Shown here in pieces: positions 19,126 through 32,273 of a stretch of 32,920 nucleotides of DNA. The DNA lies in assembly GCA_016869175.1 (NCBI GenBank), contig VGEV01000026.1, positions 1 to 32,920 of the forward strand, written 5' to 3'. Every line of letters begins with the position of its first letter. Positions within the stretch are counted from its first letter, which is position 1. A model generated the notes under the pieces. That model was not told the DNA's origin. It searched no databases and worked only from the letters and a program-made list of their open reading frames with translations. The stretch comes from Alphaproteobacteria bacterium. Its GTDB lineage: Bacteria; Pseudomonadota; Alphaproteobacteria; GCA-2731375. Position numbers and translations under genes: made by a program.

Positions 19126-19980
19126 ATGGCTTATGAGTGCATCACGGTTCGGCCACTGGCCGGCGCGCTGGGCGCCGAGGTGGGAGGTGTGGCACTGGCC
19201 CGGGCGCATCAGGACAACCGGGTGTGGGGCGAGATCCACCAGGCCTTCCTGGCCCACCAGGTAATCGTGTTTCGCGAGCAGGAGCTGTCGCTGGACGACT
19301 TGCTGGCGGTTGGCCGGCGCTTTGGCGAGCCGACCGACTATCCCTTCGTCAAGGGCATCGAGGGCTATCCGCAGATCTTTGAAATCCTGAAGGAGCCGGA
19401 GGAGCGGCAGAATTTCGGCGGCAACTGGCATTCCGACACGACCTACCTGCCCAAGCCGCCCTTGGCCACCTTGCTCCATGCGCTGGAGACGCCCAGCGCC
19501 GGCGGCGATACGCTGTTCGCCAACCAGTATCTCGCTTACGAGAGTTTGTCGGCCGGCATGCGCCGGCTGCTGGATGGCCTGACCGGCATCTATAGCGGCA
19601 GCCTCAAGCGGTATGGCGGCCGGGCGCGCATGCACGGGAACAGCGACACCATGGCGCACCAGAACCTGACCGGCGCCGATGGCTACGAGGCGGCGCACCC
19701 CGCCGTGCGCACCCACCCCGAGACCGACCGCAAGGCGCTCTATGTCAGCCGCACGCATACCCTGCGGTTTCAGGACATGAGCGAGGCCGAGAGCCAGCCG
19801 CTGATCGAATTCCTGCAGCGCCACGCCACGCGGCCCGAATTCACCTGCCGGGTCGGCTGGCGGCCGGGCACGCTGACGGTATGGGACAATCGCTGCGTGC
19901 AGCATTTCGCCATCAACGACTATCATGGCCAGCGTCGCCGCATGCGTCGGCTGACCGTCGGGCCGCAAGTTCCGGCATGA
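19126..19980 (+). CDS. TauD/TfdA family Fe(II)/2-oxoglutarate dioxygenase
   Basis: The 284-residue enzyme couples oxidation of 2-oxoglutarate to hydroxylation of a substrate at an Fe(II) centre. The facial triad is H102 and D104 (NWHSDTTYL) and H260 (CVQHFAINDY). The Arg cluster after it (GQRRRMRR) supplies the 2-oxoglutarate carboxylate ligand. The N-terminus (TVRPLAGALGAEVGGVAL) and VIVFREQELS are typical of the family, whose members attack taurine, phenoxyacetates and other acids or sulfonates. Substrate not predictable. GGAGGCAGGTCGG stands before the ATG. The LLM oxidoreductase gene follows 16 bp later and is probably co-transcribed. Confidence 0.93.
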   Translation: MAYECITVRPLAGALGAEVGGVALARAHQDNRVWGEIHQAFLAHQVIVFREQELSLDDLLAVGRRFGEPTDYPFVKGIEGYPQIFEILKEPEERQNFGGNWHSDTTYLPKPPLATLLHALETPSAGGDTLFANQYLAYESLSAGMRRLLDGLTGIYSGSLKRYGGRARMHGNSDTMAHQNLTGADGYEAAHPAVRTHPETDRKALYVSRTHTLRFQDMSEAESQPLIEFLQRHATRPEFTCRVGWRPGTLTVWDNRCVQHFAINDYHGQRRRMRRLTVGPQVPA

Positions 19981-19996
19981 GCACGAGGAGGTGCGG

Positions 19997-20866
19997 GTGA
20001 AATTCGGTCTGCGCTACTGCAATACCGGCCGTTATGTCGATCCGGCGGAAGCCGTGGCGCTGGCCCAGGCGGGCGAAGCGGCGGGGTTCGATTCCCTGTG
20101 GACGGTCGAGCACACCGTGGTGCCCGCCGGCTACAAATCGGCCTATCCCTATTCCCAGGACGGCCGCATGGCAGGCGGCGTCGAGGACTTGCCGCTGCCC
20201 GATCCGCTGATCTGGATGGCCTATGTGGCCGCCGCGACCAAGCGGATCAAGCTGGCCACCGGTATCCTGATCCTGCCGCAGCACAATCCGGTCATCGTCG
20301 CCAAGCAGGTGGCGACGCTCGACCACCTGTCCGGCGGGCGGGTGTTGCTGGGTATCGGCGTCGGCTGGCTGAAGGAGGAGTTCGACATCCTGGGCGCTTC
20401 CTTTCCCGATCGCGGGTCGCGCACCGACGAGTATGTCGCGGCGATGCGCGAGTTGTGGGCGGCCGAGCGGCCGAGCTTCAAGGGCAGATACGTCAACTTC
20501 GCGGGGGCCTATTGCCGCCCGCAGCCGGTCAACAAGGCCGTGCCGATCATCGTCGGCGGCCATAGCAAGGCGGCGGCGGAACGCGCCGGACGGCTGGGCG
20601 ACGGCTTCTTCCCGGCGCGCGGCGCGCCGGCCGACTTGATCGCCATCGTGCGCGAGGCCGCGCGCAAGGCGGGCCGCGATCCCTCCGCGGTGGCAATCAC
20701 CGTCAGCATGCCGGACGATGCGGCCGAACTCGAACGCCTGTCCAATCTGGGCGTCGACCGCGTGCTGGTGCCGGTGACCGGCATGGGCGGCTTGAAGACC
20801 GCGCTGGCCGGGCCGCAGGATGCGCCGCGCTGGCGCGACACGATCCAGCGCTACGCCAAGGCCTAA
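19997..20866 (+). CDS. LLM class F420-dependent oxidoreductase-type flavoprotein
   Basis: The 289-residue TIM-barrel protein is of the luciferase-like superfamily, closest in pattern to the F420-dependent group (VKFGLRYCNTGRYVDP, GFDSLWTVEHTVVP, KLATGILILPQHNPVIVAKQVATLDHLSGGRVLLGIGVGWLKEEF). The C-terminal part reads VPIIVGGHSKAAAERAGRLGDGFFP. No F420 biosynthesis genes are in the window, and FMN could serve instead. A GTG at 19997 follows GAGGAGG at proper spacing; a GTG at 19991 is too close to it. Its stop overlaps that of the convergent acyl-CoA ligase gene by 4 bp. It probably works with the preceding dioxygenase. Confidence 0.9.
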   Translation: MKFGLRYCNTGRYVDPAEAVALAQAGEAAGFDSLWTVEHTVVPAGYKSAYPYSQDGRMAGGVEDLPLPDPLIWMAYVAAATKRIKLATGILILPQHNPVIVAKQVATLDHLSGGRVLLGIGVGWLKEEFDILGASFPDRGSRTDEYVAAMRELWAAERPSFKGRYVNFAGAYCRPQPVNKAVPIIVGGHSKAAAERAGRLGDGFFPARGAPADLIAIVREAARKAGRDPSAVAITVSMPDDAAELERLSNLGVDRVLVPVTGMGGLKTALAGPQDAPRWRDTIQRYAKA

Positions 20867-22476
20867 TGTCGTTTCTGCACCAGCTTGGTCAGTTCGTGGC
20901 GCTGTAGCTTGCCGGTTGGCGTGAACGGGAACTCGGCGAAGATTTCCAGCGCTTCCGGCAGCTTGTAGGTGGCGACCTCGCCTTGCAGCATGCCCAGCAT
21001 CTCGTCCAGCGTCACCGTCTGGCCCGCCTTGGGAATGACACAGAGCGTGTTGCGCTCGCCCAGCCGGGCATCGGCCACGCCGACGATGGCGACATGCAGC
21101 ACCTTGGGGTGGGTGTAGAGTATCTCCTCCACCTCCCGGGGATGGAACTTCTTGCCGCCGCGGTTGATGATCTCCTTGCGCCGGCCGACGATGCGGAGAT
21201 AGCCACGCTCGTCCAGCACGCCCATGTCGCCCGAACGGAACCAGCCGTCGGCGGTGAACAGCTCGTCGTTCGCTTGCGGGTTGTTGTAGTAGCCAAGGTG
21301 AACCGAGGGACCCTTGGCGACGATCTCGCCCTCGGCTCCCAGCGGCACCTCGTTGCCCGCTTCGTCGATCAGACGCAATTGCATGCCGCTGGTCACCGGC
21401 CCGACCGTGCCGGAAACCCCGATGGGATCGTCGCTCAACCGGGTATAGGTGTGAAAGCCCGTCTCCAGCATGCCATAGAGCTCGATGAACTTGCCCTTCA
21501 GCTTGACTTGATATTCGCGGATGGTCTCCACCGGACAGGAGGCGCCGCCGCTTACGACCAGACGCAACGATGACAGGTCGTAGCGCGCCAGGGCGGGCTC
21601 GTTCAGCATGGCGATGATCGAGGCCGGCGCCGTCGGGATATAGCTCACGCGCTCCTGCTGGATGAGTTCCAGCGCGTCCTTGGCGACGAAGCGGTCGAGC
21701 AGCACGGCCCTGGCGCCCGACAGGAACGTCTGCAACAGCGCCAGGTAGCCCCAGTTCAAGCCCAGCGGCAGGTAGAGCAGGAATACTTCGCGCTCGGTAA
21801 TGCCCAGGTCGTGCTGCTGGATGCGGCAGGCCGAAAGGGTGGTGTTGTGCGAATGGATCACCGCCTTGGGGTTGCCGGTGGTGCCGGAGGTGAAGGCCAT
21901 GCGGTAGACGTCGTCGCCGTGCATGGCAACGGGCACCAGGGGCGGCAGGTTCTCGCTGCCGTCGATGGCTCCGTTCAGGCCGACCACGTCCCCGGCCGCG
22001 CTATCGACCGCGAACACCCGGACCAGTTGCGGCAACCCCGGTCGGATCTGGCGGATCATCGGCAGGTAGTCGAAGTTGCGGAACCGCTCGGCGCAGATAA
22101 AGGCGCGGGCATCGGAGAAGCGCAGGATGAATTCGACCTCGCGCGCGCGGAAGTCGGTGGAGATCTGGATGGCGATGCCGCCGATCCGCTCCACAGCGAA
22201 GAAACAGGCGGCGAACTCCACCCAGTTCGGCAACTGGATGGTGACAACGTCGCCTTGGCCCAGGCCCTCGGCCTGCAGCTTCGCGGCGATGCGATCGACC
22301 ATCGCGTCCAATTGGCCATAGGTCACGCGGCGGCGGCGATCGTAAAGCGCCTGCCGGTCGGGATGCTTCGCCGCCTGGCGCCGCAGGATGGCGCCGAAAG
22401 CGTCGTCGCTCCACCAGGGCGAGTTCGCACTGCTGGCGATCTGTGCCGCCGTCACCCGAGTCTCGAATCGCGCCAT
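20863..22476 (-). CDS. AMP-dependent acyl-CoA synthetase/ligase
   Basis: The 537-residue ANL-superfamily enzyme activates a carboxylic acid with ATP to an acyl-adenylate and then to the CoA thioester. Motifs in order: the P-loop-like AFTSGTTGNPKAVIHSH, ELYGMLETGFHTY, GEIVAKGPSVHLGYYNN, WFRSGDMGVLDERGYLRIVGRRKEIINRGG, and the C-terminal catalytic Lys in TPTGKLQRHEL. There is no signal peptide, so it acts in the cytoplasm. The pattern fits medium- or aromatic-acid ligases; the acid is unknown. GGAGGG is 5 bp before the ATG. It is the last gene of the long minus-strand operon, 9 bp after livF, which suggests that it activates what the transporter imports. Confidence 0.95.
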   Translation of the reverse strand: MARFETRVTAAQIASSANSPWWSDDAFGAILRRQAAKHPDRQALYDRRRRVTYGQLDAMVDRIAAKLQAEGLGQGDVVTIQLPNWVEFAACFFAVERIGGIAIQISTDFRAREVEFILRFSDARAFICAERFRNFDYLPMIRQIRPGLPQLVRVFAVDSAAGDVVGLNGAIDGSENLPPLVPVAMHGDDVYRMAFTSGTTGNPKAVIHSHNTTLSACRIQQHDLGITEREVFLLYLPLGLNWGYLALLQTFLSGARAVLLDRFVAKDALELIQQERVSYIPTAPASIIAMLNEPALARYDLSSLRLVVSGGASCPVETIREYQVKLKGKFIELYGMLETGFHTYTRLSDDPIGVSGTVGPVTSGMQLRLIDEAGNEVPLGAEGEIVAKGPSVHLGYYNNPQANDELFTADGWFRSGDMGVLDERGYLRIVGRRKEIINRGGKKFHPREVEEILYTHPKVLHVAIVGVADARLGERNTLCVIPKAGQTVTLDEMLGMLQGEVATYKLPEALEIFAEFPFTPTGKLQRHELTKLVQKRH

Positions 22477-22485
22477 GGCGCCCTC

Positions 22486-23180
<695 letters not shown>

Positions 23181-23181
<1 letters not shown>

Positions 23182-23930
23182 TATTCGAACCCGCCAAGAT
23201 AGGCCGATTGCACATTGGCATCGGCCTTGACTTCGTCCGGCGTGCCATCCGCGATCACGGCGCCCCGGTGCAGCACCGTGATGCGCTGCGCCAGCCGGAA
23301 CACCACTTCCATGTCGTGCTCGACCAGCAGCACTGTCAGCTTGCCGTCGGACAGCAGTTCCGTCAGCGTCTCCACCGCCTTGCCGGTTTCCTCCACCGAC
23401 AGGCCCTGGGTCGGCTCGTCGAGCAGCATCAGGCGCGGGCGTTGCGCCAGCGCCATCGCCACTTCCAGCAACCGCTGGTCGCCATGCGACAGATAACCGG
23501 CAACCTCGCCCGCGACATGCCCCAGACCCAGGCGTTCCAGCGCCGCGTCGGCCCGCCGTTCCGCTTCGGCGAACACCGCGCCGCCGCCGAACGGCCGCCA
23601 GCGCCCGCCAAGCCGCGCCTGCGCCGCGAGGCGGGCATTGTCGCGCGCGGTCATCTCCGGGAAGAGCGCCGTGATCTGAAAGGTCCGCGACATGCCGAGC
23701 TGGCAGATCTCGAAGGCGCTGAGGCCGTTCAGGCGCCGGCCGTCGAACCGCACCTCGCCCTCGCTAGCCGGCAGCACGCCGTTGATCAGGTTGAACAAGG
23801 TCGACTTGCCGGCGCCGTTCGGTCCGATCACCGCGCGGACCTCGCCCTGTTCGACCCGCATGCTGACCTGATCGACCGCCACCAGGGCGCCGAACCGGCG
23901 GGTCAGGCCGTCGAGTTCCAGGAACGCCAT
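23181..23930 (-). CDS. livG: Branched-chain amino acid-type ABC transporter ATP-binding protein (LivG)
   Basis: The 249-residue ATPase is of the LivG type: Walker [17 protein letters not shown], then [15 protein letters not shown], and Walker [16 protein letters not shown] with the switch His in [11 protein letters not shown]. The signature motif reads LSHGDQR instead of the common LSYGEQR, a conservative variant seen in this family. It partners LivF at the cytoplasmic face of LivH/LivM. It begins 4 bp after the livM stop codon. Confidence 0.96.
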
Positions 23931-23934
23931 CGCG

Positions 23935-24876
23935 CTAGACCCTTTGCGTCTTGCGGCCGAGGCGTTGCATCAGCGTGCCCCAGATGCCTTCCGGCAGGAA
24001 CAGCACCACGGCGATGAACATCAGGCCGAAATAGATCGCCCAAGTCTCGGTGACGCTGCTCAACTGATGCTGCGCCAGCAGGAAGAGCGCGGCCCCTAGG
24101 ATCGGCCCGATCAAGGTGCCGGCGCCGCCGACGATGACCATGATCAGCGCTTGACCCGAGAACAGCCAAAACAGCAGCTCGGTGTTGGTGAAGCCGGCGA
24201 AGGGCGCGTAGAGCGCGCCGGCGAGCCCGCCCAGCGCATAGGCGATCGCCACCACGCCGATCTTGTAGGCCCGCGTGTTGTAGCCGAGCGCGCGGGTCTT
24301 GTTCTCGTTCTCGCGGATGCCTCGCAGCACCGCGCCGAACGGCGAGTTCACCAGTGTGCGGCAGAACAGATAGGCGCCGAACAAGCATAGAAGGACGAGA
24401 TAGTAGTAGCCGATCTTGCTGGTCAGCAGGTCAAAGCCGAACGGTCCGCCGCGCCGCGGGATGCCGGCCAGTCCGTCGGAACCGCCCGTCACCTGCTGCC
24501 ACTGGAAGGCGATCGCATACAACAATTGCGCGAAGGCGAGCGTCAGCATGGCGAAGGACACGCCCGTCGCCAGCGTGAACACCCAGGCGGCCGCGATGGC
24601 GACAATGCCGGTCATGGCTGCGGCGATGAACACCGCGAACAGCACCGGTGTGTCGCTGTGCAGCAGGATGTAGCCTGCGCTGTAGGCGCCCAGGCCATAG
24701 GCGGCGGCATGGCCGAACGAGACCAGACGGGTGTAGCCCACCATCAAGTCCAGGCTCATCGCCATGAGCCCCAGGATGAGCGCCTCGGTCAGCAGCGTCA
24801 TCATGAACAACGGCAGGCCAAGCGGCGCCGCCGCCAGCACGACGACGACCGCCAGCAGAATGATCCACCCCCGCAT
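23935..24876 (-). CDS. livM: Branched-chain amino acid-type ABC transporter permease (LivM)
   Basis: The 313-residue inner-membrane permease has eight or more hydrophobic segments. The family landmarks are LMAMSLDLMVGYTRLVSFGHAAAYGLGAYSAG early on, AFAQLLYAIAFQWQQVTGGSDGLAGIP in the middle, and the ATPase-contact loop RGIRENENKTRALGYN. The later GGAGTLIGPILGA is also typical. The ATG at 24876 follows GGAAGAG and is one base after the livH stop; an in-frame ATG further upstream lies within livH and is rejected. Confidence 0.95.
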   Translation of the reverse strand: MRGWIILLAVVVVLAAAPLGLPLFMMTLLTEALILGLMAMSLDLMVGYTRLVSFGHAAAYGLGAYSAGYILLHSDTPVLFAVFIAAAMTGIVAIAAAWVFTLATGVSFAMLTLAFAQLLYAIAFQWQQVTGGSDGLAGIPRRGGPFGFDLLTSKIGYYYLVLLCLFGAYLFCRTLVNSPFGAVLRGIRENENKTRALGYNTRAYKIGVVAIAYALGGLAGALYAPFAGFTNTELLFWLFSGQALIMVIVGGAGTLIGPILGAALFLLAQHQLSSVTETWAIYFGLMFIAVVLFLPEGIWGTLMQRLGRKTQRV

Positions 24877-24877
24877 C

Positions 24878-25747
24878 TTACTCTTCCTTGCCCAGCAGGC
24901 CGCCCGGCCGCACCACAAGGACGGTCAGCATGACCAGATACATGAAGGCCAGCGCCGCTTCCGGCAGGTAGTAGTTCCCGAACACCTGCACGAAGGCGAC
25001 GATCAGCGCGCCGATCAGCGAGCCGAGAAAACTGCCCATGCCGCCGATGATGACGATGACGAAGGCATCGACCACGGCGGCCAACGACATGCCCAGCGAA
25101 GCGGTGACCAATGGCGCCGCCAGCACGCCGCCCAGAGCCGCAAGCCCGCAGCCGATACCGAACACGCCCGAACGGACGACCCGCACGTCGGTGCCGAGCG
25201 CATGCACCATGTCCGGGTTCTGCGAGGTGGCCCGGATCAGCAAGCCGAGCCGCGTGCGTTCCAGGAACTGCCACATGCCGATCGCCATGACGGTGCCGAA
25301 TCCGATCAGGAACAGCCGATAGACCGGGAACGGTTCGTCCAGGAAGAAGGCGATGCCGGCCAGAGCCGCCGGCGGCGGCACCTGCAAGGGTGGCGCGCCC
25401 CACACCACCTGCACCGCATCGCCCAGCACCAAGGCCAAGCCGAAGGTGACCATCAGGAAGGCATTGCCGTCGCGCCCATAGAGCCGGCGCAGGATGAACA
25501 GCTCGAACAGCACGCCGAGGACGCCGACCACGATCGGCGCGACCATCAGCGCGGCAACGAAACCGCCCAGCCAGCGCACCGAGGTGTAGCCGAGATAGGC
25601 GCCGGCCATGTAGATGGTGCCATGCGCGAAGTTGACGATGCGCATGATGCCGAAGATCAGCGTCAGGCCGCAGCCCAGGAAGAAGAGCAGGGCCGCCTGC
25701 GAGAACGCGTTGACGCACTGCGTCAGGATGAACGCCAAGGTATCCAT
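24878..25747 (-). CDS. livH: Branched-chain amino acid-type ABC transporter permease (LivH)
   Basis: The 289-residue inner-membrane permease of the LivH type has alternating hydrophobic segments and the family stretches ALLFFLGCGLTLIFGIMRIVNFAHG, YMAGAYLGY, LLIRATSQNPDMVHALGTDV and IIGGMGSFLGSLIGA. It pairs with LivM to form the channel. The start has GGAG 5 bp upstream. It lies 60 bp after the binding-protein gene, the usual position in this transporter class. Confidence 0.95.
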   Translation of the reverse strand: MDTLAFILTQCVNAFSQAALLFFLGCGLTLIFGIMRIVNFAHGTIYMAGAYLGYTSVRWLGGFVAALMVAPIVVGVLGVLFELFILRRLYGRDGNAFLMVTFGLALVLGDAVQVVWGAPPLQVPPPAALAGIAFFLDEPFPVYRLFLIGFGTVMAIGMWQFLERTRLGLLIRATSQNPDMVHALGTDVRVVRSGVFGIGCGLAALGGVLAAPLVTASLGMSLAAVVDAFVIVIIGGMGSFLGSLIGALIVAFVQVFGNYYLPEAALAFMYLVMLTVLVVRPGGLLGKEE

Positions 25748-25807
25748 GGAGACTCCGGGCAGCGCACCGAGACGGGCGGACGGCCCGTCCCGGCGACCGG
25801 CACGACG

Positions 25808-27037
25808 CTAGTTGTCGTAGGTCATCTTGTTGCAAGGCGGCGTGATCTGGTCCGCCCCGTAGGTCTTCAGGATGTTCAGCGTCGGATGCGGGAGCTTGTC
25901 GGTCTTGGCGACCTGCACGACATAGCCGCGCTGTTCGCCCTGGTGGTCGCAGGCCCGCATCGTCACCTTGCCCTTGATGCCGTCGTGCACCATGCCTTCC
26001 ATCGCCTTGCGCAACGGCTCGGCCTCGATGCTCTTGGCCTTCTCGATGCCCTGCGCCAGCACCGCGAGCCCATGATAGGCCTCGCCGTCGAACTGGTCGG
26101 GCACCTCGCCATGTTCCTTCTGGAAGGCCGCGACGAAGGCGGCGTTGGCCGGGTTTTCAAGTGTGAAGGGATAGCGCGAGCTGGCGGTCAGGCCGATCGC
26201 CGCTTCGCCCACGGCCTTCACGCTGACGAGTTCAAGCTGCTCGGCCAGCATCGTCATCCGCTCTGCCAGGCGGTATTGGTGCGCCTGCGACAGGAAGGCG
26301 TTGTTGTCGTCGGCCGCCAGCACCAGATAGACGCCGTCGGCGCCCGATTGCCGGATCTTGGTGATGTAGGTCGAGAAATCCTTGGTGCCCGAGGGCGAGA
26401 ACACCTTGCCGATGAACTCCTTGCTGGCGTTCTTCAGCTCGGTTTCGAAGACCTGCACGCTGTTGTGGCCCCAGGCATAGTCCATGCCCAGCGCGAAGAA
26501 TTTCTGCATCTTGCTCTCGCGCAGGAAGAGCGAGATGGCGCGCGCGCCCATCGGGCCGGAGGTGTTGGCGCGGAAGAAATTGGGCACGAACGAAGCCGCT
26601 GTCAGCCGGCCGTCGCCGTTGATCGAGGACATAAAGATGGTGTTCCACTCCTCGAGCTTCGGCACCAGCGCCAACGCTTCCGACGACACGGTCACGCCGG
26701 TGATCAGCCGGCAGTTGTGCCGCTCCACCATCTCCTGCGCCTTGCGCACGCAGTTGGCGGGGTTGCCTTGCGTGTCTTCGATCAGGAGTTCGATCGGCCG
26801 GCCCAGGATGCCGCCCTTGGCGTTGCGCTCCTTGGCGAAGAACTCGGCGCCGCGCTTGGTCACCTGACCCACGGCCGCGAAAGTGCCAGTCAGCGCGCAG
26901 GGGATGCCGATCTTGATGGGGCCGGTCGCCTGCGCCATTGTCTCGCGCAAGAAAGCCGGCGCCGCCAACGTGGCAGCCGCGCCCGCGGCCGCGCCCTTCA
27001 GTACGCCGCGCCTTGTCAATCCCCTGAATCGTTTCAT
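25808..27037 (-). CDS. ABC transporter substrate-binding protein (LivK/Peripla_BP_6 type), Tat-exported
   Basis: The 409-residue periplasmic binding protein is of the Leu/Ile/Val-binding class. The N-terminus has a twin-arginine signal, TRRGVLKG (R9, R10), a hydrophobic stretch and probable cleavage near AQA (residues 35-37). The mature part begins IKIGIPCALTGTFAAVGQ and continues with GAEFFAKERNAKGGILGRPIELLIEDTQGNP and ITGVTVSSEALAL, all typical. It binds the ligand that LivHMGF imports. The Tat signal means it is probably folded before export. The ATG with GGAGGACG upstream was chosen; a longer start would bury the signal. It stands 45 bp after the SDR gene in the same operon. Confidence 0.94.
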   Translation of the reverse strand: MKRFRGLTRRGVLKGAAAGAAATLAAPAFLRETMAQATGPIKIGIPCALTGTFAAVGQVTKRGAEFFAKERNAKGGILGRPIELLIEDTQGNPANCVRKAQEMVERHNCRLITGVTVSSEALALVPKLEEWNTIFMSSINGDGRLTAASFVPNFFRANTSGPMGARAISLFLRESKMQKFFALGMDYAWGHNSVQVFETELKNASKEFIGKVFSPSGTKDFSTYITKIRQSGADGVYLVLAADDNNAFLSQAHQYRLAERMTMLAEQLELVSVKAVGEAAIGLTASSRYPFTLENPANAAFVAAFQKEHGEVPDQFDGEAYHGLAVLAQGIEKAKSIEAEPLRKAMEGMVHDGIKGKVTMRACDHQGEQRGYVVQVAKTDKLPHPTLNILKTYGADQITPPCNKMTYDN

Positions 27038-27082
27038 GACGTCCTCCACGCTCTGGTTGTGCCTTCGACCCACGCGCCCGCT

Positions 27083-27853
27083 CTAGGCCGCGATGATTTG
27101 GCCACCGTCGACCTGTATGACCTTGCCGGTAACGTAACCCCCTTCCTCGCCGGCGAGGAAGAGCACCATGCGCGCGACCTCCTCTGGCCGGGCGATGCGT
27201 TGCAGCGGAATGCCGGCGATCACCTGTTCCGTCGCCTTCGGCCCCCAGCGCTCGAACGCCAGGCGGGCCTGCTCGGTATCGGTCAGCCCGATCGACACCG
27301 CGTTGGCGCGGATGCCGTAGCGGCCCTCCTCGCGCGCGATCACCCGGATCAGCGCCTCCAGTCCGGCCTTGGACGCTGCGCCTTGCGAATTGCGCGACTG
27401 GCACATCTGTGCCGCGATCGAGGAGATCGCCACCACCGCGCCGCCGCCGGCACCGTGCATGTGCCGCACCGCCGGCTGGATGACGTTGAAGGCGCCAACC
27501 AGATCAATGGCGATGAAGTCGGCGAAACCCTGCGGCTGAATGTCGCGCACCGGGGCCCAATCGACGTCGCCGCCCGCGGCGTGCACAAGCACGTCCAGCC
27601 GGCCAAGCTCGGCGACGGTTCGGGCCACCGCCTTTTCCGTGGCGCTCGCATCCCTCAGGTCGGTCGGCAGCACCAGCGCTCGGCGGCCCGCCTGCCGCAC
27701 CGCGGCCGCCGCCTGTTCCGCCCGTTGCGGATGGCTGTGGCTGGTCAGCGCCACATCGGCCCCAGCCCGTGCCAGATCCGCCGCCACCGCGCGGCCCACG
27801 CCGCCGCTGCCGCCGCTGACCAACGCCACCCTGCCCGCGAATGTCCCTGTCAC
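27083..27853 (-). CDS. SDR family oxidoreductase lacking the catalytic Tyr
   Basis: The 256-residue Rossmann-fold protein is of the classical short-chain dehydrogenase type. Cofactor motif SGGSGGVGRAVA (residues 13-24), DLRDAS, HAAGG (replacing NNAG), ISSIAA with the catalytic Ser, and the C-terminal ARPEEVARMVLFLAGEEGGYVTGKVIQVDGG are clear. The Y-x-x-x-K motif reads G-A-A-S-K: K162 is present but residue 158 is Gly, where the proton-donating Tyr is expected. The DNA shows GGC there, so it is not a misreading of frame. GTG with AAAGGGGGACG upstream is the start. It may be a binding or noncanonical enzyme. It lies between the MDR gene and the binding-protein gene. Confidence 0.85.
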   Translation of the reverse strand: MTGTFAGRVALVSGGSGGVGRAVAADLARAGADVALTSHSHPQRAEQAAAAVRQAGRRALVLPTDLRDASATEKAVARTVAELGRLDVLVHAAGGDVDWAPVRDIQPQGFADFIAIDLVGAFNVIQPAVRHMHGAGGGAVVAISSIAAQMCQSRNSQGAASKAGLEALIRVIAREEGRYGIRANAVSIGLTDTEQARLAFERWGPKATEQVIAGIPLQRIARPEEVARMVLFLAGEEGGYVTGKVIQVDGGQIIAA

Positions 27854-27915
27854 GCGTCCCCCTTTTGCCGCCCGCGACCGTTCCCCCATCCACGGGATTG
27901 ATGGCGCGGCGCCGT

Positions 27916-28959
27916 TCAAACCTGCAGCACCATATTTCCAAAGAAATCGCGGCTCTCCAGGCGCTGGTGGGCCCGGCCGGCTTCGGTCAGCGGCATGATC
28001 TCGGCGATCACCGGGCGCAGTTTTCCCTCGCCCAGCAACCGCAGGGCGGTCTTCACCGTCTCCTTCGGTGCGAAATGCGTGCCGGTGACCCAGAGTTGCT
28101 TGCGCAGCAGGCGGTACATGTCAATTTCCACTTTGGCCCGACCCACTGTCCCGGCGGTGGCCAGCCGGGCATTATGCGCCATCGCCGCCAGGCTTTGCTG
28201 CAAGACGCGGCCGCCGACCGTCTCGATCACCACGTCGACGCCGCGCCCGTCGGTCAGCCGCAGCACTTCCTCGGCCAAGTCCTGCCGCTCGTAGTTGACC
28301 ACCGCGTCGGCGCCCAACTGCCGGGCCCGTTCCAGCTTCGCGTCGGCGCCGGCACTGGCGATCACCCGGGCGCCCGCCAGCTTGCAGATCTGCACCGCCG
28401 AACTGCCGACCGCGCCGCCGGCGGCGTTGACCAGAGCCGTCTCGCCCTGCCGCACCTTGGCGCGCGAGATCGCCAGCTCCCAAGCCGTGGCCGTGGCGAC
28501 CGTGGCGGCTGCCGCGTCGATGAATGACAGCGTGTCGGGCAGCCGCACGGCATTGAACTGCGTCACCTTCACATACTCGGCATAGGTGCCCCACAGCGTC
28601 AGGCCGAGCTTGTCGAAGTTGCGGCAGATGTTGTCGTGACCCAGCGCGCAATAGCAGATCTCGTGCCGACAGACGCCGCTGGAAATGCTGAGGATCGGCA
28701 CCACCCGGTCGCCCGCCTGGAAGGCGCTGACGCCCTCGCCGACGGCAACGACCGTGCCGCAGCCCTCGAGCCCCAGCACGTGGGGAAACGTCACCTTGGC
28801 GTAGGGGATGTCGCCGCGCCGGGCGGAGATGTCGAAGCGATTGACGCCGGCGGCGGCCACCTTGACCAGCAGTTCGCCCGGGCCCGGCCGTGGCTCGGCG
28901 ATCTCCTCGGCCCGCATCACTTCTGGACCGCCATGTTGGCGGATGACGATCGCTTTCAT
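27916..28959 (-). CDS. Zinc-containing/quinone-oxidoreductase-type MDR alcohol dehydrogenase
   Basis: The 347-residue medium-chain dehydrogenase has the N-terminal GroES-like domain (MKAIVIRQHGGPEVM, LLVKVAAAGVNRFDISARRGD, FPHVLGLEGCGTVVAVGEGV) and a Rossmann domain (ALVNAAGGAVGSSAVQICKLAGARVIA). A cysteine lobe, CRHEICYC...C at about residues 96-111, resembles the structural-zinc loop, though its spacing is not canonical. It oxidises or reduces an alcohol, aldehyde or enone with NAD(P). Only a weak purine-rich site precedes the ATG, 9 bp after the LLM monooxygenase stop, so translation may be coupled. Substrate unknown. Confidence 0.9.
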   Translation of the reverse strand: MKAIVIRQHGGPEVMRAEEIAEPRPGPGELLVKVAAAGVNRFDISARRGDIPYAKVTFPHVLGLEGCGTVVAVGEGVSAFQAGDRVVPILSISSGVCRHEICYCALGHDNICRNFDKLGLTLWGTYAEYVKVTQFNAVRLPDTLSFIDAAAATVATATAWELAISRAKVRQGETALVNAAGGAVGSSAVQICKLAGARVIASAGADAKLERARQLGADAVVNYERQDLAEEVLRLTDGRGVDVVIETVGGRVLQQSLAAMAHNARLATAGTVGRAKVEIDMYRLLRKQLWVTGTHFAPKETVKTALRLLGEGKLRPVIAEIMPLTEAGRAHQRLESRDFFGNMVLQV

Positions 28960-28968
28960 GTTGTCTCG

Positions 28969-30237
28969 CTATGCCAGGGCGGAAGGTTTCAAATCCGTTG
29001 AATAGGCAGTGCTGACCGGCGCGTTCGCCTCGAACGGGCTGCGGATGCCTTCCTTGGCGGCGAACTCGCGCAAGGCCGGCAGCACTTCGCGGCCCATCAG
29101 TTCGATGCAACGGTTGACCGGCTCGTAGGGCATCTTACCGTCGGCGCACCAGGCGCAGAAGACCCCCGGCCGCGTCACCGACAGCACCTGCTTCAGCTTG
29201 TCGATCACCTGGCTAGGCGTGCCATGAATGATCTGCAGGCCCTCGACCTGGGCGCGGAAGGCCTCGTCCGCGGTCGCCTTGCCGCGTTCCAGGCTGGTGA
29301 TGGCGCCCGGCGCGGCCACCCGGCTGTTCACCACCTCGACCACCGCCTTGCGCCGCTCAGGCGCCAGATAGCCGGACGGCTGGCTCCAGACCGGGTGCGC
29401 GAGGCCGCTGAACTCGCCCTGCATCCAGGTGAATTCGCGCGCCAGGCGCTCCGCGTCGCCGGCGCTGTCCTGCACATGCACGCGCAGCAATTGGCCGAAA
29501 TTCTCCGGCCCGGGCACATAGCCCACCCGGCGCGCGGCCTGGCCATAAATCTCGGCAATGCGCGCCTGTACCTTCGCCGTGGTCAAGAGGCCGACATAGG
29601 GATAGCGCCGCTCCGCCGCCCAAGTGATGGTCTCGTGGCTGGAGATGCCCGGCACGAAGATGCGCGGATGCGGCTTCTGCAGCGGCACAGCCCAGGGATT
29701 GACCACGCGGTAGTGAAAATGATCGCCCTCCCAGCGGAATGGCCCCGGCGTGGTCCAGGTCTTCAGGATCAGCTCGTGCGCCTCCTCCAGCCGCTCGCGG
29801 TTGTAGGCCGGGTTGGCGTTGTGCGCGAACTGCTCGGTACCGCCGCCGCGCACGATGCCAGGCACGAGCCGCCCCCTCGACAGCATGTCGATCATCGCGA
29901 ATTCCTCGGCGATGGCGAGCGGCGCGTCGTAGAGCGGCAGCGGAATGCCCAGCGTCACGATCTTGACCCGCGTCGTCGCCGCCGCCAGCGCGGCCGCCCA
30001 GACCGTGATGCGCGACTGCATGCAGAACGGTGCGTTGTGGTGCTCGTTCAGCATGATGGCATCGAAGCCGACCGCCTCGGCCAGGCGATACTGCGACAGG
30101 TATTCGTTATACAGCCGGCTGCCGGAGACCGGATCGAAATGCCGATTGGAGAAGGTCAATACCGTGTAGCGATGTTCCAGCCCCTTGTCCTCCGGGTAGG
30201 TGGACATCGGTTGTTCGGTGAAATAGGTCATCAACAT
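28969..30237 (-). CDS. LLM class flavin-dependent oxidoreductase (luciferase-like monooxygenase)
   Basis: The 422-residue luciferase-like protein has the TIM-barrel pattern: TYFTEQPMSTYPED at the start, AVGFDAIMLNEHHNAPFCMQ, TRVKIVTLGIPLPLYDAPLAIAEEFAMIDMLSRGRLVPGIVRGG, and later HGTPSQVIDKL. The N-terminal block FTEQP and a Cys-rich CAWCADG near the end mark a subfamily of FMN-dependent monooxygenases. Members use reduced FMN made by a separate reductase; one is encoded two genes upstream (31022-31525). GAGGGG is 6 bp before the start. An alpha/beta hydrolase gene precedes it by 9 bp. Confidence 0.92.
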   Translation of the reverse strand: MLMTYFTEQPMSTYPEDKGLEHRYTVLTFSNRHFDPVSGSRLYNEYLSQYRLAEAVGFDAIMLNEHHNAPFCMQSRITVWAAALAAATTRVKIVTLGIPLPLYDAPLAIAEEFAMIDMLSRGRLVPGIVRGGGTEQFAHNANPAYNRERLEEAHELILKTWTTPGPFRWEGDHFHYRVVNPWAVPLQKPHPRIFVPGISSHETITWAAERRYPYVGLLTTAKVQARIAEIYGQAARRVGYVPGPENFGQLLRVHVQDSAGDAERLAREFTWMQGEFSGLAHPVWSQPSGYLAPERRKAVVEVVNSRVAAPGAITSLERGKATADEAFRAQVEGLQIIHGTPSQVIDKLKQVLSVTRPGVFCAWCADGKMPYEPVNRCIELMGREVLPALREFAAKEGIRSPFEANAPVSTAYSTDLKPSALA

Positions 30238-30246
30238 GACGGCCCC

Positions 30247-31032
30247 TCAGGCGGCCCCGGCATGGCCGGCGACCAGTGCGGCCAGGCGGTCCGGCGCTTC
30301 CATCTCCACCCGGTGTCCGGCCGCCGCCACCACCTCCAGCCGTGCCGCCGGCAGGGCGGCGGCATAGCGTCTGGCGCAATCCGCCGGCACGATGCGATCG
30401 GCCTCGCCCCTGACCACGAGCGTCGGCGTCGGCACGCTCGCCAGCAGGGCCGGCAGCGCGCGGTTGAACATGTAAGGCTTCCAGGCGACCCGCATGGTCG
30501 CCTCGCGGTGGGTGTCCCAGCGCAGCAACTGCTCGATCGGCGCCGGATCGCCAAACACCGCCGCGTAGCGCGTCTCGTCCTGGAAGCCCAGCTTCACATA
30601 GGCCTCGTGGCTCAGCAGGAACTGGTCGGCGATCTCGCCCTGCTCGGGCTTGATCCCCATGGGACCGACGAGGGTCAGGCTGGCGAAACGGCCGGCGCCG
30701 AAGCTGGCGAGTTCGGCGGCCAGCCAGCCGCCGAAGCCAAGCCCGACCAGGCCCGGCCGCGCCAAGCCCAGGGCATCGATGGCCAGCCCGACGACGGCCG
30801 CGAGGTCGCGCACGTTGCGCGCCCAGTCGGCCCGCTGCGAGCCGCCGAAGCCCGGCAGGTCGAGCACGATGAGATCGTGCCGCCGCGCCAGCAGATCGTA
30901 GAACGGCAAGGCGTCCGGGGTGCCGATGTCGTTATGCAGCAGCACCAGCGGCGGGCCGGAGCCGCCCCGGCGGTAGGCCAGTCCGAGACCCGCGACCGGC
31001 AGCGTGCCCGACCGCACGACTTCAGCCGCCAT
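30247..31032 (-). CDS. Alpha/beta-hydrolase fold protein with Gly at the nucleophile position
   Basis: The 261-residue protein has the alpha/beta hydrolase order: the oxyanion strand GPPLVLLHNDIG, LDLPGFGGSQ, the nucleophile elbow GLVGLGFGGWLAAE, the acid D212 in VRGEADRIVP, and H240 in AAAGHRVEMEAPD. At the elbow the Ser of G-x-S-x-G is Gly99, while the Asp and His are kept. A second conserved feature of the branch is LVGPMGIKPEQGEIADQFL. The loss may be characteristic of a whole subfamily working beside LLM monooxygenases; that is inference. Its start overlaps the flavin reductase gene by 11 bp, so the two are coupled. Confidence 0.85.
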   Translation of the reverse strand: MAAEVVRSGTLPVAGLGLAYRRGGSGPPLVLLHNDIGTPDALPFYDLLARRHDLIVLDLPGFGGSQRADWARNVRDLAAVVGLAIDALGLARPGLVGLGFGGWLAAELASFGAGRFASLTLVGPMGIKPEQGEIADQFLLSHEAYVKLGFQDETRYAAVFGDPAPIEQLLRWDTHREATMRVAWKPYMFNRALPALLASVPTPTLVVRGEADRIVPADCARRYAAALPAARLEVVAAAGHRVEMEAPDRLAALVAGHAGAA

Positions 31033-31525
31033 AGAATACCTTCTCGCCCAGCTCCTTCATTTCCAGGATGGCGGCATCGGCCCGGCCGGCCGGCGGCTTC
31101 ATGACATGCGCTTCCACCACCTCCGCCAGCACCACGTGGTGGTCGCCGCGGGCAACGATCTCCGCCACCTTGCATTCGACCGCGGCGGCGGCGTTGCGCA
31201 AGACGGGCTGCCCCGTGGCGCCGGCGCGATAGGGCTCGCCCGACAACGTGCCATCCTTTTTCTCGGCCGGCTTGAAGAACGTGAAGGCCGCCCCCTGCTG
31301 ACCCTTGCCCAGCATGTTGAGAGTGAAACCGCCAGCCTTCTTCACCACCGCATAGGCGCCGGAATCGGCCTTGATGGCAACCGCCACGAGCGGCGGCGCG
31401 AACGCCGTCTGGGTCACCCAATTGACCGTAGCGGCGGCGACCGAGCCGTCGCCGGCCTCGGCGGTCAGTATATAGATACCGTAGGGGATCATGCGCAGCG
31501 CGGTCTTCTTGGCATCGGCGTCCAT
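31022..31525 (-). CDS. Flavin reductase family protein
   Basis: The 167-residue protein is of the flavin reductase-like (FMN-binding split barrel) family. The stretch MIPYGIYILTAEAGDGSVAAATVNWVTQTAFAPPLVAVAIK is the typical start of the fold, followed by FTLNMLGKGQQGAAFTFFKP and VLRNAAAAVECKV with HHVVLAEVVEA. It reduces FMN with NAD(P)H and hands it to a monooxygenase; candidates here are the LLM enzyme two genes downstream and the acyl-CoA-dehydrogenase-fold protein at 12913-14103. GGAGGAGAG precedes the ATG; longer in-frame starts overlap the divergent gene. It is the first gene of the 10.7-kb minus-strand operon. Confidence 0.92.
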   Translation of the reverse strand: MDADAKKTALRMIPYGIYILTAEAGDGSVAAATVNWVTQTAFAPPLVAVAIKADSGAYAVVKKAGGFTLNMLGKGQQGAAFTFFKPAEKKDGTLSGEPYRAGATGQPVLRNAAAAVECKVAEIVARGDHHVVLAEVVEAHVMKPPAGRADAAILEMKELGEKVFYGG

Positions 31526-31595: not shown

Positions 31596-32273
31596 ATGCT
31601 GAAGGCAATCACCATCATCAAGCGCAAAGCTGGCATGTCGGTCGAGGCCTTCCAGCACTATTGGCGCACCACGCATGCCGAGGTGGTGAAGCCGCTGCCC
31701 GACATCCGCCGCTACGTGCAGAGCCACGCCCTGCTGGGCGGCTATCGCAAGGGCGAACTGCCGCATGACGGCATCGCGGAGATCTGGGTGGATGACATGG
31801 CGGCCCTGCGCGCCATGTCCAATTCGCCGCACTATGCCCACGTGGTGGCCGACGAAGCCAGGTTCATCGACCGCGCCAGCATGGTGCTGCTGCTGGTCGA
31901 GGATCACGTCATCAAGCACGGCGCGATCCCGGCCGACGCGGTGAAGAACATCGAGTTCGTCAGCCACCGCCCGGGCATGGCGATCGAGGACTTCCAGCGC
32001 TATTGGCGCGAGGTGCACGGGCCGCTGGCGACGCATATCACGCAGATCCGCCGCTATGTGCAAAGCCACGTGCGGCTGGGCGCCTACAAGGCCGGCAAGC
32101 CGCCGAAATACGACGGTTGCGCGCTCACCTGGTTCGAGTCGGTCGCGGCGATGCGCGACAGCGCGCGCTCGCCAGCCTATGCCCGCACCCGCGACGACGA
32201 GGCCAATTTCCTCGACACGGCCGGCGGCCACCTGCCGTTCATCATCACCCGCGAACACGTGATCGTCGCCTGA
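31596..32273 (+). CDS. EthD domain-containing protein, internally duplicated
   Basis: The 225-residue protein is made of two EthD-like (dimeric alpha-beta barrel) domains, at about residues 1-110 and 113-225. The halves repeat the same landmarks: a strand, then F-x-x-Y-W-R with His (AFQHYWRTTHAEV and DFQRYWREVHGPL), then IRRYVQSH (residues 38-44 and 152-158). EthD proteins occur with degradation monooxygenases, with roles in catalysis or in removal of toxic intermediates. A fused pair probably replaces the dimer of single-domain proteins. GGGG is a few bases upstream of the ATG. It is divergent from the flavin reductase gene with 70 bp between, so the two transcripts may share a control region. 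Confidence 0.87.
   Translation: MLKAITIIKRKAGMSVEAFQHYWRTTHAEVVKPLPDIRRYVQSHALLGGYRKGELPHDGIAEIWVDDMAALRAMSNSPHYAHVVADEARFIDRASMVLLLVEDHVIKHGAIPADAVKNIEFVSHRPGMAIEDFQRYWREVHGPLATHITQIRRYVQSHVRLGAYKAGKPPKYDGCALTWFESVAAMRDSARSPAYARTRDDEANFLDTAGGHLPFIITREHVIVA

Follow-up and report, generated by a model that had tools for sequence, protein, structure and literature searches.

The window, i.e. the whole stretch of 32,920 nucleotides analysed here, encodes a 261-amino-acid member of the alpha/beta hydrolase fold (gene 30247..31032, minus strand), in which the serine nucleophile is replaced by a glycine (Gly99); this glycine is more than the quirk of one genome, as it is fixed across a whole clade of relatives. 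As judged from sequence comparisons, this protein (hereafter the Gly protein) is a member of a distinct nucleophile-less Abhydrolase_6 clade, which is co-inherited with an LLM (luciferase-like) monooxygenase, probably of the FMN type, and the two proteins probably work as a pair on one compound. We propose, giving this reading about an even chance, that the Gly protein is an enzyme acting on the product of the LLM monooxygenase, with His240 (usually together with Asp212) operating as the acid/base.

A glycine elbow fixed in one clade

The elbow of the Gly protein (ORF 30247-31032, minus strand) is LVGLGFGGWLAAE, with the residues G97-L98-G99-F100-G101-G102-W103. The sequence, the profile alignment and the structural model all agree with the original prediction that G-L-G-F-G stands here in place of G-x-S-x-G. 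In profile searches, the protein scored 71.2 bits against Abhydrolase_6 (PF12697; cut-off 26.3) and 65.7 bits against Abhydrolase_1 (cut-off 25.8). Profile alignment with BphD places Gly99 (codon 30736..30738), Asp212 (30397..30399) and His240 (30313..30315), all on the minus strand, on the nucleophile, acid and base columns, respectively, which we take to be those of the BphD triad residues; the acid and the His of the triad were thus rightly predicted to be kept. The AlphaFold model (mean pLDDT 96.1), which matches solved hydrolases with Z scores of up to 30.2 among the matches listed, comprises a strand at 94-98 and a helix at 100-109, which puts residue 99 at the turn of the elbow, with none of its neighbours shifted into that position. 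A register shift or a misread elbow, which might have brought another nucleophile into position, is ruled out by this model and by the strict conservation of G-x-G-G-W-x-A-A-E, and a sequencing error or a lone mutation at residue 99 is ruled out by the 26 further members of the clade. The elbow bears neither the Ser, Cys or Asp expected of a serine hydrolase nucleophile nor the Asp nucleophile of epoxide hydrolases and haloalkane dehalogenases. Since residue 99 has no side chain, no acyl-enzyme or seryl-enzyme can form. The database label "alpha/beta hydrolase" implies serine chemistry, of which the Gly-clade proteins are incapable.

The contig scan for relatives provided the best 80 of 188 matches, making 81 rows with the window, in which residue 99 is Ser (57 rows), Gly (21), Gln (2) or Phe (1). 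Among these best 80 of 188, all relatives with at least about 45% identity have Gly at this position, and the next ones (44% or less) mostly have Ser. One of the seed patterns (FGGWLAAE) begins one residue past 99, and therefore biases residues 100-107, not residue 99. A first tree of 112 rows was built after leaving out L078, the frame of which is truncated, and a second distant match in L059. The second tree (102 rows) was also built without L085 and L086 (distant or on long branches) and 24 near-duplicates, with 16 new rows added, and with column 99 removed from the alignment. In this 102-protein tree, 27 Gly rows form one clade (support 99/92), nested within a 43-row clade (99/96) together with the 16 nearest rows outside it, which all have Ser. 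Four of the 27 Gly rows (L125-L128) came from whole-genome searches performed without the elbow seed. The original prediction of a noncanonical subfamily, with Gly conserved at residue 99 among homologues, holds in the window's clade (27/27); whether homologues nearly all have Ser, the case that would have spoken against it, depends on how far one looks, with 57 Ser and 21 Gly among the first 81 rows but Gly throughout that clade. The window copy is a divergent clade member, with an end branch of 0.81 and differences from the clade consensus at positions 57, 178, 208 and 257.

Outside the main clade, two further Gly rows (L079 and L139) are placed elsewhere in the 102-protein tree, and five rows have yet another elbow residue, namely Gln (2), Phe, Asp and Cys. 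The tree requires three changes for Gly and seven overall, counts that are blind to gain versus loss; the simplest reading is that Ser has been replaced several times in the course of the family's evolution. The other elbows (L029:5980-6768; L051:5980-6714; L065:5962-6762; L107; L111) belong to LLM-linked members of the same family, and carry Phe (GYFFGG; here another hydrolase-fold gene follows directly), Gln (two actinobacteria), Asp and Cys.

The partner monooxygenase and the gene neighbourhood

As predicted, the gene of the Gly protein overlaps a flavin reductase gene (31022..31525, minus strand; PF01613, 106.1 bits) by 11 nt (31022-31032), and adjoins, at a distance of 9 nt, the LLM monooxygenase gene (28969..30237, minus strand; 422 aa; PF00296, 142.6 bits). 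Nine nucleotides past the LLM gene lies a gene of the zinc-type alcohol dehydrogenase / quinone oxidoreductase family (27916..28959, minus strand), followed on the same strand by a short-chain dehydrogenase gene (27083..27919). The rest of the likely operon (20863..27073, minus strand) comprises the parts of an ABC transporter, i.e. a substrate-binding protein (25808-27073), two putative permeases read from the sequence (24878-25747 and 23935-24918) and two ATPases (23181-23930 and 22486-23181), and a CoA ligase (20863-22476). From the flavin reductase to the CoA ligase, the genes of this minus-strand run either overlap or are separated by a few tens of bases.

The LLM gene is the recurrent partner. 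In all 29 Gly rows of the tree, window included, the gene that immediately follows the Gly gene, in the same orientation, encodes an LLM, with a median gap of 25.5 nt (range -17 to 158) in the 28 rows other than the window. The link to the oxygenase stands as a genomic fact, at the level of genes, and the Gly protein may, as first suggested, also bind the oxygenase. Within the main clade, the partner LLMs share 44-61% identity with that of the window, and 25 of the 26 placeable ones form one supported clade. Among 68 Ser rows, an LLM gene lies directly downstream in 55 and on the other side in five, and none was found in eight, some of these contigs ending early; since the Ser relatives also adjoin LLM genes, the glycine is not accounted for by this linkage.

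The flavin reductase, by contrast with the LLM gene, is a neighbour specific to the window, so that of the predicted gene context only the LLM part recurs across Gly loci. A tblastn search with the window's reductase gave no match at E 1e-10 in any of 23 further Gly loci (flanks of up to about 6 kb, some much shorter), and the reductase is thus rejected as a conserved partner. At 1e-6, with flanks of the same size, the search returned only the window's own copy and one in the Gln-bearing locus L065. A wider common pathway is also rejected, as no neighbour other than the LLM gene is common to most of the 23 Gly loci; the others include SDR-like (nine loci), CoA-ligase-like (five) and hydantoinase A/B-like (two, L114 and L116) matches. 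A Pfam scan made on 87 ORFs of these neighbourhoods covers the first 25 of 69 families, and thus speaks for presences and not for absences.

The partner LLM has both the PF00296 domain and the luciferase-type fold of the LLM monooxygenases. Its E65-H66-H67 residues are unchanged in 43/43 aligned partners, and align with the EHH of luciferase alpha. Its structural model (pLDDT 88.8) best matches, among the matches listed, an Agrobacterium monooxygenase (2i7g; Z 37.4, rmsd 2.5, 336 aligned residues), followed by RslO1 (Z 36.6), luciferase alpha (Z 35.4) and the type II Baeyer-Villiger 3,6-diketocamphane monooxygenase (5aec; Z 33.1, rmsd 2.6, 324 aligned residues). The match to RutA (Z 25.4) ranks below the luciferase and type II Baeyer-Villiger monooxygenase folds. 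No NCBIfam LLM model reached its cut-off against the partner LLM, and both the adjacent reductase and the EHH residues favour FMN over F420. From the retained EHH and the luciferase-like and type II Baeyer-Villiger-like fold, we regard the partner as probably an active FMNH2-type monooxygenase.

At 19126-20866 (plus strand), the window also carries a TauD-type dioxygenase gene followed by a second LLM gene, the product of which matches the F420-type model TIGR03619 (265.6 bits, cut-off 166.9). Adjoining the flavin reductase gene, a divergent gene (31596-32273, plus strand) encodes a two-domain EthD-family protein. Elsewhere, L064 and G573:C14:31148-34112 each encode a Gly protein a few kb away from a distant member of the family; in L064 this distant member has Ser, and each of the two has its own LLM.

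Proposed function and alternatives

In the proposed pathway, the LLM monooxygenase would use reduced flavin, here probably provided by the adjacent reductase, to oxygenate its substrate, and the hydrolase-fold partner would take over the unstable product. His240, mostly paired with Asp212, would then act as a general base or acid on this compound, or on a water molecule occupying the space vacated at the elbow; candidate reactions are hydration, tautomerisation, C-C or C-N cleavage and decarboxylation. Together, the LLM and the Gly protein would perform one catabolic step, which in the window would operate beside dehydrogenases, an ABC transporter and a CoA ligase.

This proposal is supported by the following lines of evidence, in addition to Gly99 (27/27) and the LLM pairing. 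His240 is kept in all 27 rows of the Gly clade, and when all rows with Gly, Phe or Gln at position 99 are considered (n=32), His240 is found in 32/32 and Asp212 in 28/32. Within the clade, Asp212 is present in 23/27 rows and replaced by Asn in four (L004, L006, L008 and L018), so that His240 is the sole invariant member of the remaining pair, and the dyad is not strict. In L006, L008 and L018, purifying selection persists despite the Asn. Position 35 (codon 30928..30930, minus strand), the residue after H33-x34, presumably operates in the oxyanion loop. It is acidic in 26/27 Gly-clade rows (Ser in L015) and in 16/16 sister rows, which combine Glu35 with Ser99. In 59 other rows, this position mostly holds Ala, Phe, Met or Gly, and at least seven of these rows have Glu. 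Being common to the Ser sisters, the acidic loop is probably older than the loss of Ser, and, as a feature of the sequence, it argues against an ordinary ester chemistry. The cap (127-192) is the most conserved third of the protein in the Gly clade (mean entropy 1.36 bits, versus 1.49 and 1.56 elsewhere), whereas in the 59 other rows no part varies more than the cap (2.26 bits, versus 1.94 and 1.86), a pattern that would fit the retention of a single ligand by the clade. Finally, in seven close pairs within the clade, dN/dS was 0.07-0.17 for the Gly gene and 0.01-0.08 for the adjacent LLM gene, values indicating that the Gly protein is functional and under constraint, a constraint that is somewhat stronger on its LLM neighbour.

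The faster evolution of the Gly gene also suits a helper role, and the main rival, possible if somewhat unlikely, is that the Gly protein is a non-catalytic partner of the LLM, i.e. a subunit, a chaperone or a carrier of its substrate or product, which would use the old active site as a binding pocket. The strict gene pairing and co-inheritance fit this reading, as does the disappearance of Asp212 in 4/27 rows. So does the precedent of DPP10 (DPPY), a hydrolase-fold protein in exactly the same state, with a Gly elbow (GKGYGG) and the His and Asp kept, which acts through a partner; the excerpted text of PMC4350108 describes it as an inactive modulator of channels, to which the restoration of Ser gave no activity. 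Retention of the His and Asp is, accordingly, no proof of catalysis. Similarly, ABHD5 (CGI-58), which has the hydrolase fold with Asn at the nucleophile and the His and Asp kept, acts through partners, as a regulator of lipid metabolism (excerpt of PMC9694394) and a lipase cofactor (excerpt of PMC11878206). Both DPP10 and ABHD5 differ from the Gly protein in being animal proteins with other domains and partners, and no link to a flavin enzyme. Against a non-catalytic role, His240 is invariant in the 27 rows, and the pairing of the genes equally suits enzymes catalysing consecutive steps of a pathway. To our knowledge, most LLM enzymes need no hydrolase-fold subunit. A further reading, which we find quite unlikely, is that the LLM oxygenase strictly depends on the Gly protein as its second component, which would capture a peroxy, ester or hydroxy intermediate, still bound to the LLM or just released from it, and finish the reaction with His240 alone in a pocket devoid of Ser. 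The two would then make up one composite oxygenase, a two-protein type of LLM new to science, which we consider just as doubtful, and the Phe, Gln, Asp, Cys and two further Gly elbows would be variants of the same arrangement, an extension we regard as no less improbable.

The resemblance of the LLM model to type II Baeyer-Villiger monooxygenases, the products of which are esters and lactones, raises the alternative that the Gly protein is a hydrolase operating with another nucleophile (e.g. Asp35 or a cap residue), or with a His-activated water, to cleave an ester, lactone or thioester produced by the LLM. We consider this unlikely: Asp35 is almost invariant, but it is Ser in L015, and since the sister clade pairs Glu35 with Ser99 the acidic residue did not arise to replace Ser; furthermore, the LLM fold matches luciferase and RslO1 equally well or better. 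A parallel is offered by "cluster 64", a group of bacterial Abhydrolase_6 proteins with Asp in place of Ser encoded in the vicinity of genes for FMN reductase, LLM and ABC transporter proteins; as the excerpted part of PMC11878206 describes them, they differ from the Gly clade in having Asp, not Gly, and are proposed to be actinobacterial epoxide hydrolases. The Gly protein might otherwise oxygenate the LLM product itself, as a cofactor-free oxygenase resembling HOD and AqdC, with a small elbow residue favouring O2 over water. The aerobic catabolic setting is compatible with this possibility, and, in the excerpted text of PMC10548524, O2 is stabilised where the reaction takes place in the S101A mutant of HOD, and AqdC naturally has Ala. 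We nevertheless judge it very unlikely, because no family match to HOD or AqdC was obtained (the likeness is one of description), no substrate class is suggested and Gly differs from Ala. Even less credible is a decaying relic, which lost its Ser by drift and is on its way out: the long branch of the window copy and the presence of a second Gly copy in the same genome would allow it, whereas the fixation of Gly in 27 members from several phyla (by record title), the open frames and the dN/dS of 0.07-0.17 largely refute it at the level of the clade.

Returning to the acid/base enzyme acting on the LLM product, its way of working would be, by analogy, nearest to those of RutD and HOD/AqdC. The cofactor-free enzyme of the original prediction may likewise be considered, being compatible with the invariant His240 and having precedents. 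In the latter hydrolase-fold proteins the elbow Ser is dispensable (HOD) or absent (AqdC, with Ala instead of Gly), and the His-Asp pair does the work, no partner LLM being described in the excerpt of PMC10548524; Ser-free lyases relying on a D/E-H dyad also exist, according to part of PMC11878206. Like the Gly protein, RutD of E. coli has the hydrolase fold with an elbow devoid of Ser (GHALG), and its rut (pyrimidine) operon holds the LLM monooxygenase RutA and the flavin reductase RutF. This combination of a non-Ser elbow, an LLM and a flavin reductase is found in the window, and its LLM part only in the other Gly loci. As stated in the available portion of PMC8113886, RutD is dispensable and thought to speed up a reaction that also runs spontaneously. 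RutD differs from the Gly protein in having Ala at the elbow and a global identity of 19%, with a local match of just 53 residues, and the window's LLM is nearer to the luciferase and type II Baeyer-Villiger folds (best Z 37.4) than to RutA (25.4). The Gly protein is not RutD (TIGR03611, 36.8 bits; cut-off 238.5), PcaD, the 3-oxoadipate enol-lactonase (TIGR02427, 64.7 bits; cut-off 255.85), BphD (TIGR03343, 38.1 bits; cut-off 462.15) or HsaD (NF045632, 47.6 bits; cut-off 400). The closest solved folds, among the matches listed, are those of the meta-cleavage product (MCP) C-C hydrolases (BphD, HsaD and CarC), with Z 30.2, rmsd 2.3 and 244 aligned residues for CarC (1j1i) and Z 29.2 for BphD (2og1), but these enzymes carry a Ser nucleophile. 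In searches of the open-licence PMC literature, we recognised no published description of the Gly clade. A conserved nucleophile-less clade tied to an LLM offers a clean natural case of what the hydrolase fold may do without its nucleophile.

Distribution and second genomic copy

According to their record titles, the Gly-clade loci occur in Binatota/Binatia, Acetobacteraceae, Dehalococcoidia/SAR202/Chloroflexi, Pseudomonadales and Alphaproteobacteria, keeping in mind that titles of metagenome-assembled genomes can mislead, as shown by the Gly-clade locus L007, titled Klebsiella pneumoniae. The Gly protein is rare, being found in 2/398 genomes sampled from the window's phylum and in 7/385 from its class (the window's genome counted in both); residue 99 of the whole-genome matches was read where a locus was given. 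In SAR202, recalcitrant organic matter is the proposed target of the many LLM-type oxygenases, a proposal that, in the excerpted text of PMC5395668, leaves the downstream partner to spontaneous or "esterase" steps. The paired Gly gene is a candidate for that downstream step in SAR202-type LLM oxidation.

The 3.97-Mb genome of the window has a very large expansion of LLM proteins, with 50 Bac_luciferase matches above the family cut-off versus three for Flavin_Reduct, one of which adjoins the Gly protein. It encodes a second Gly copy (C53), 51% identical to that of the window, within a run of genes (L114:6596-13682) specifying, in this order, an aldo/keto reductase, the Gly protein, an LLM, hydantoinase A and hydantoinase B. 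This hydantoinase pair is nearest to the caprolactamase models, though below their cut-off (501 bits versus 1000 for caprolactamase-alpha), and L116 likewise has hydantoinase A/B-like genes nearby.
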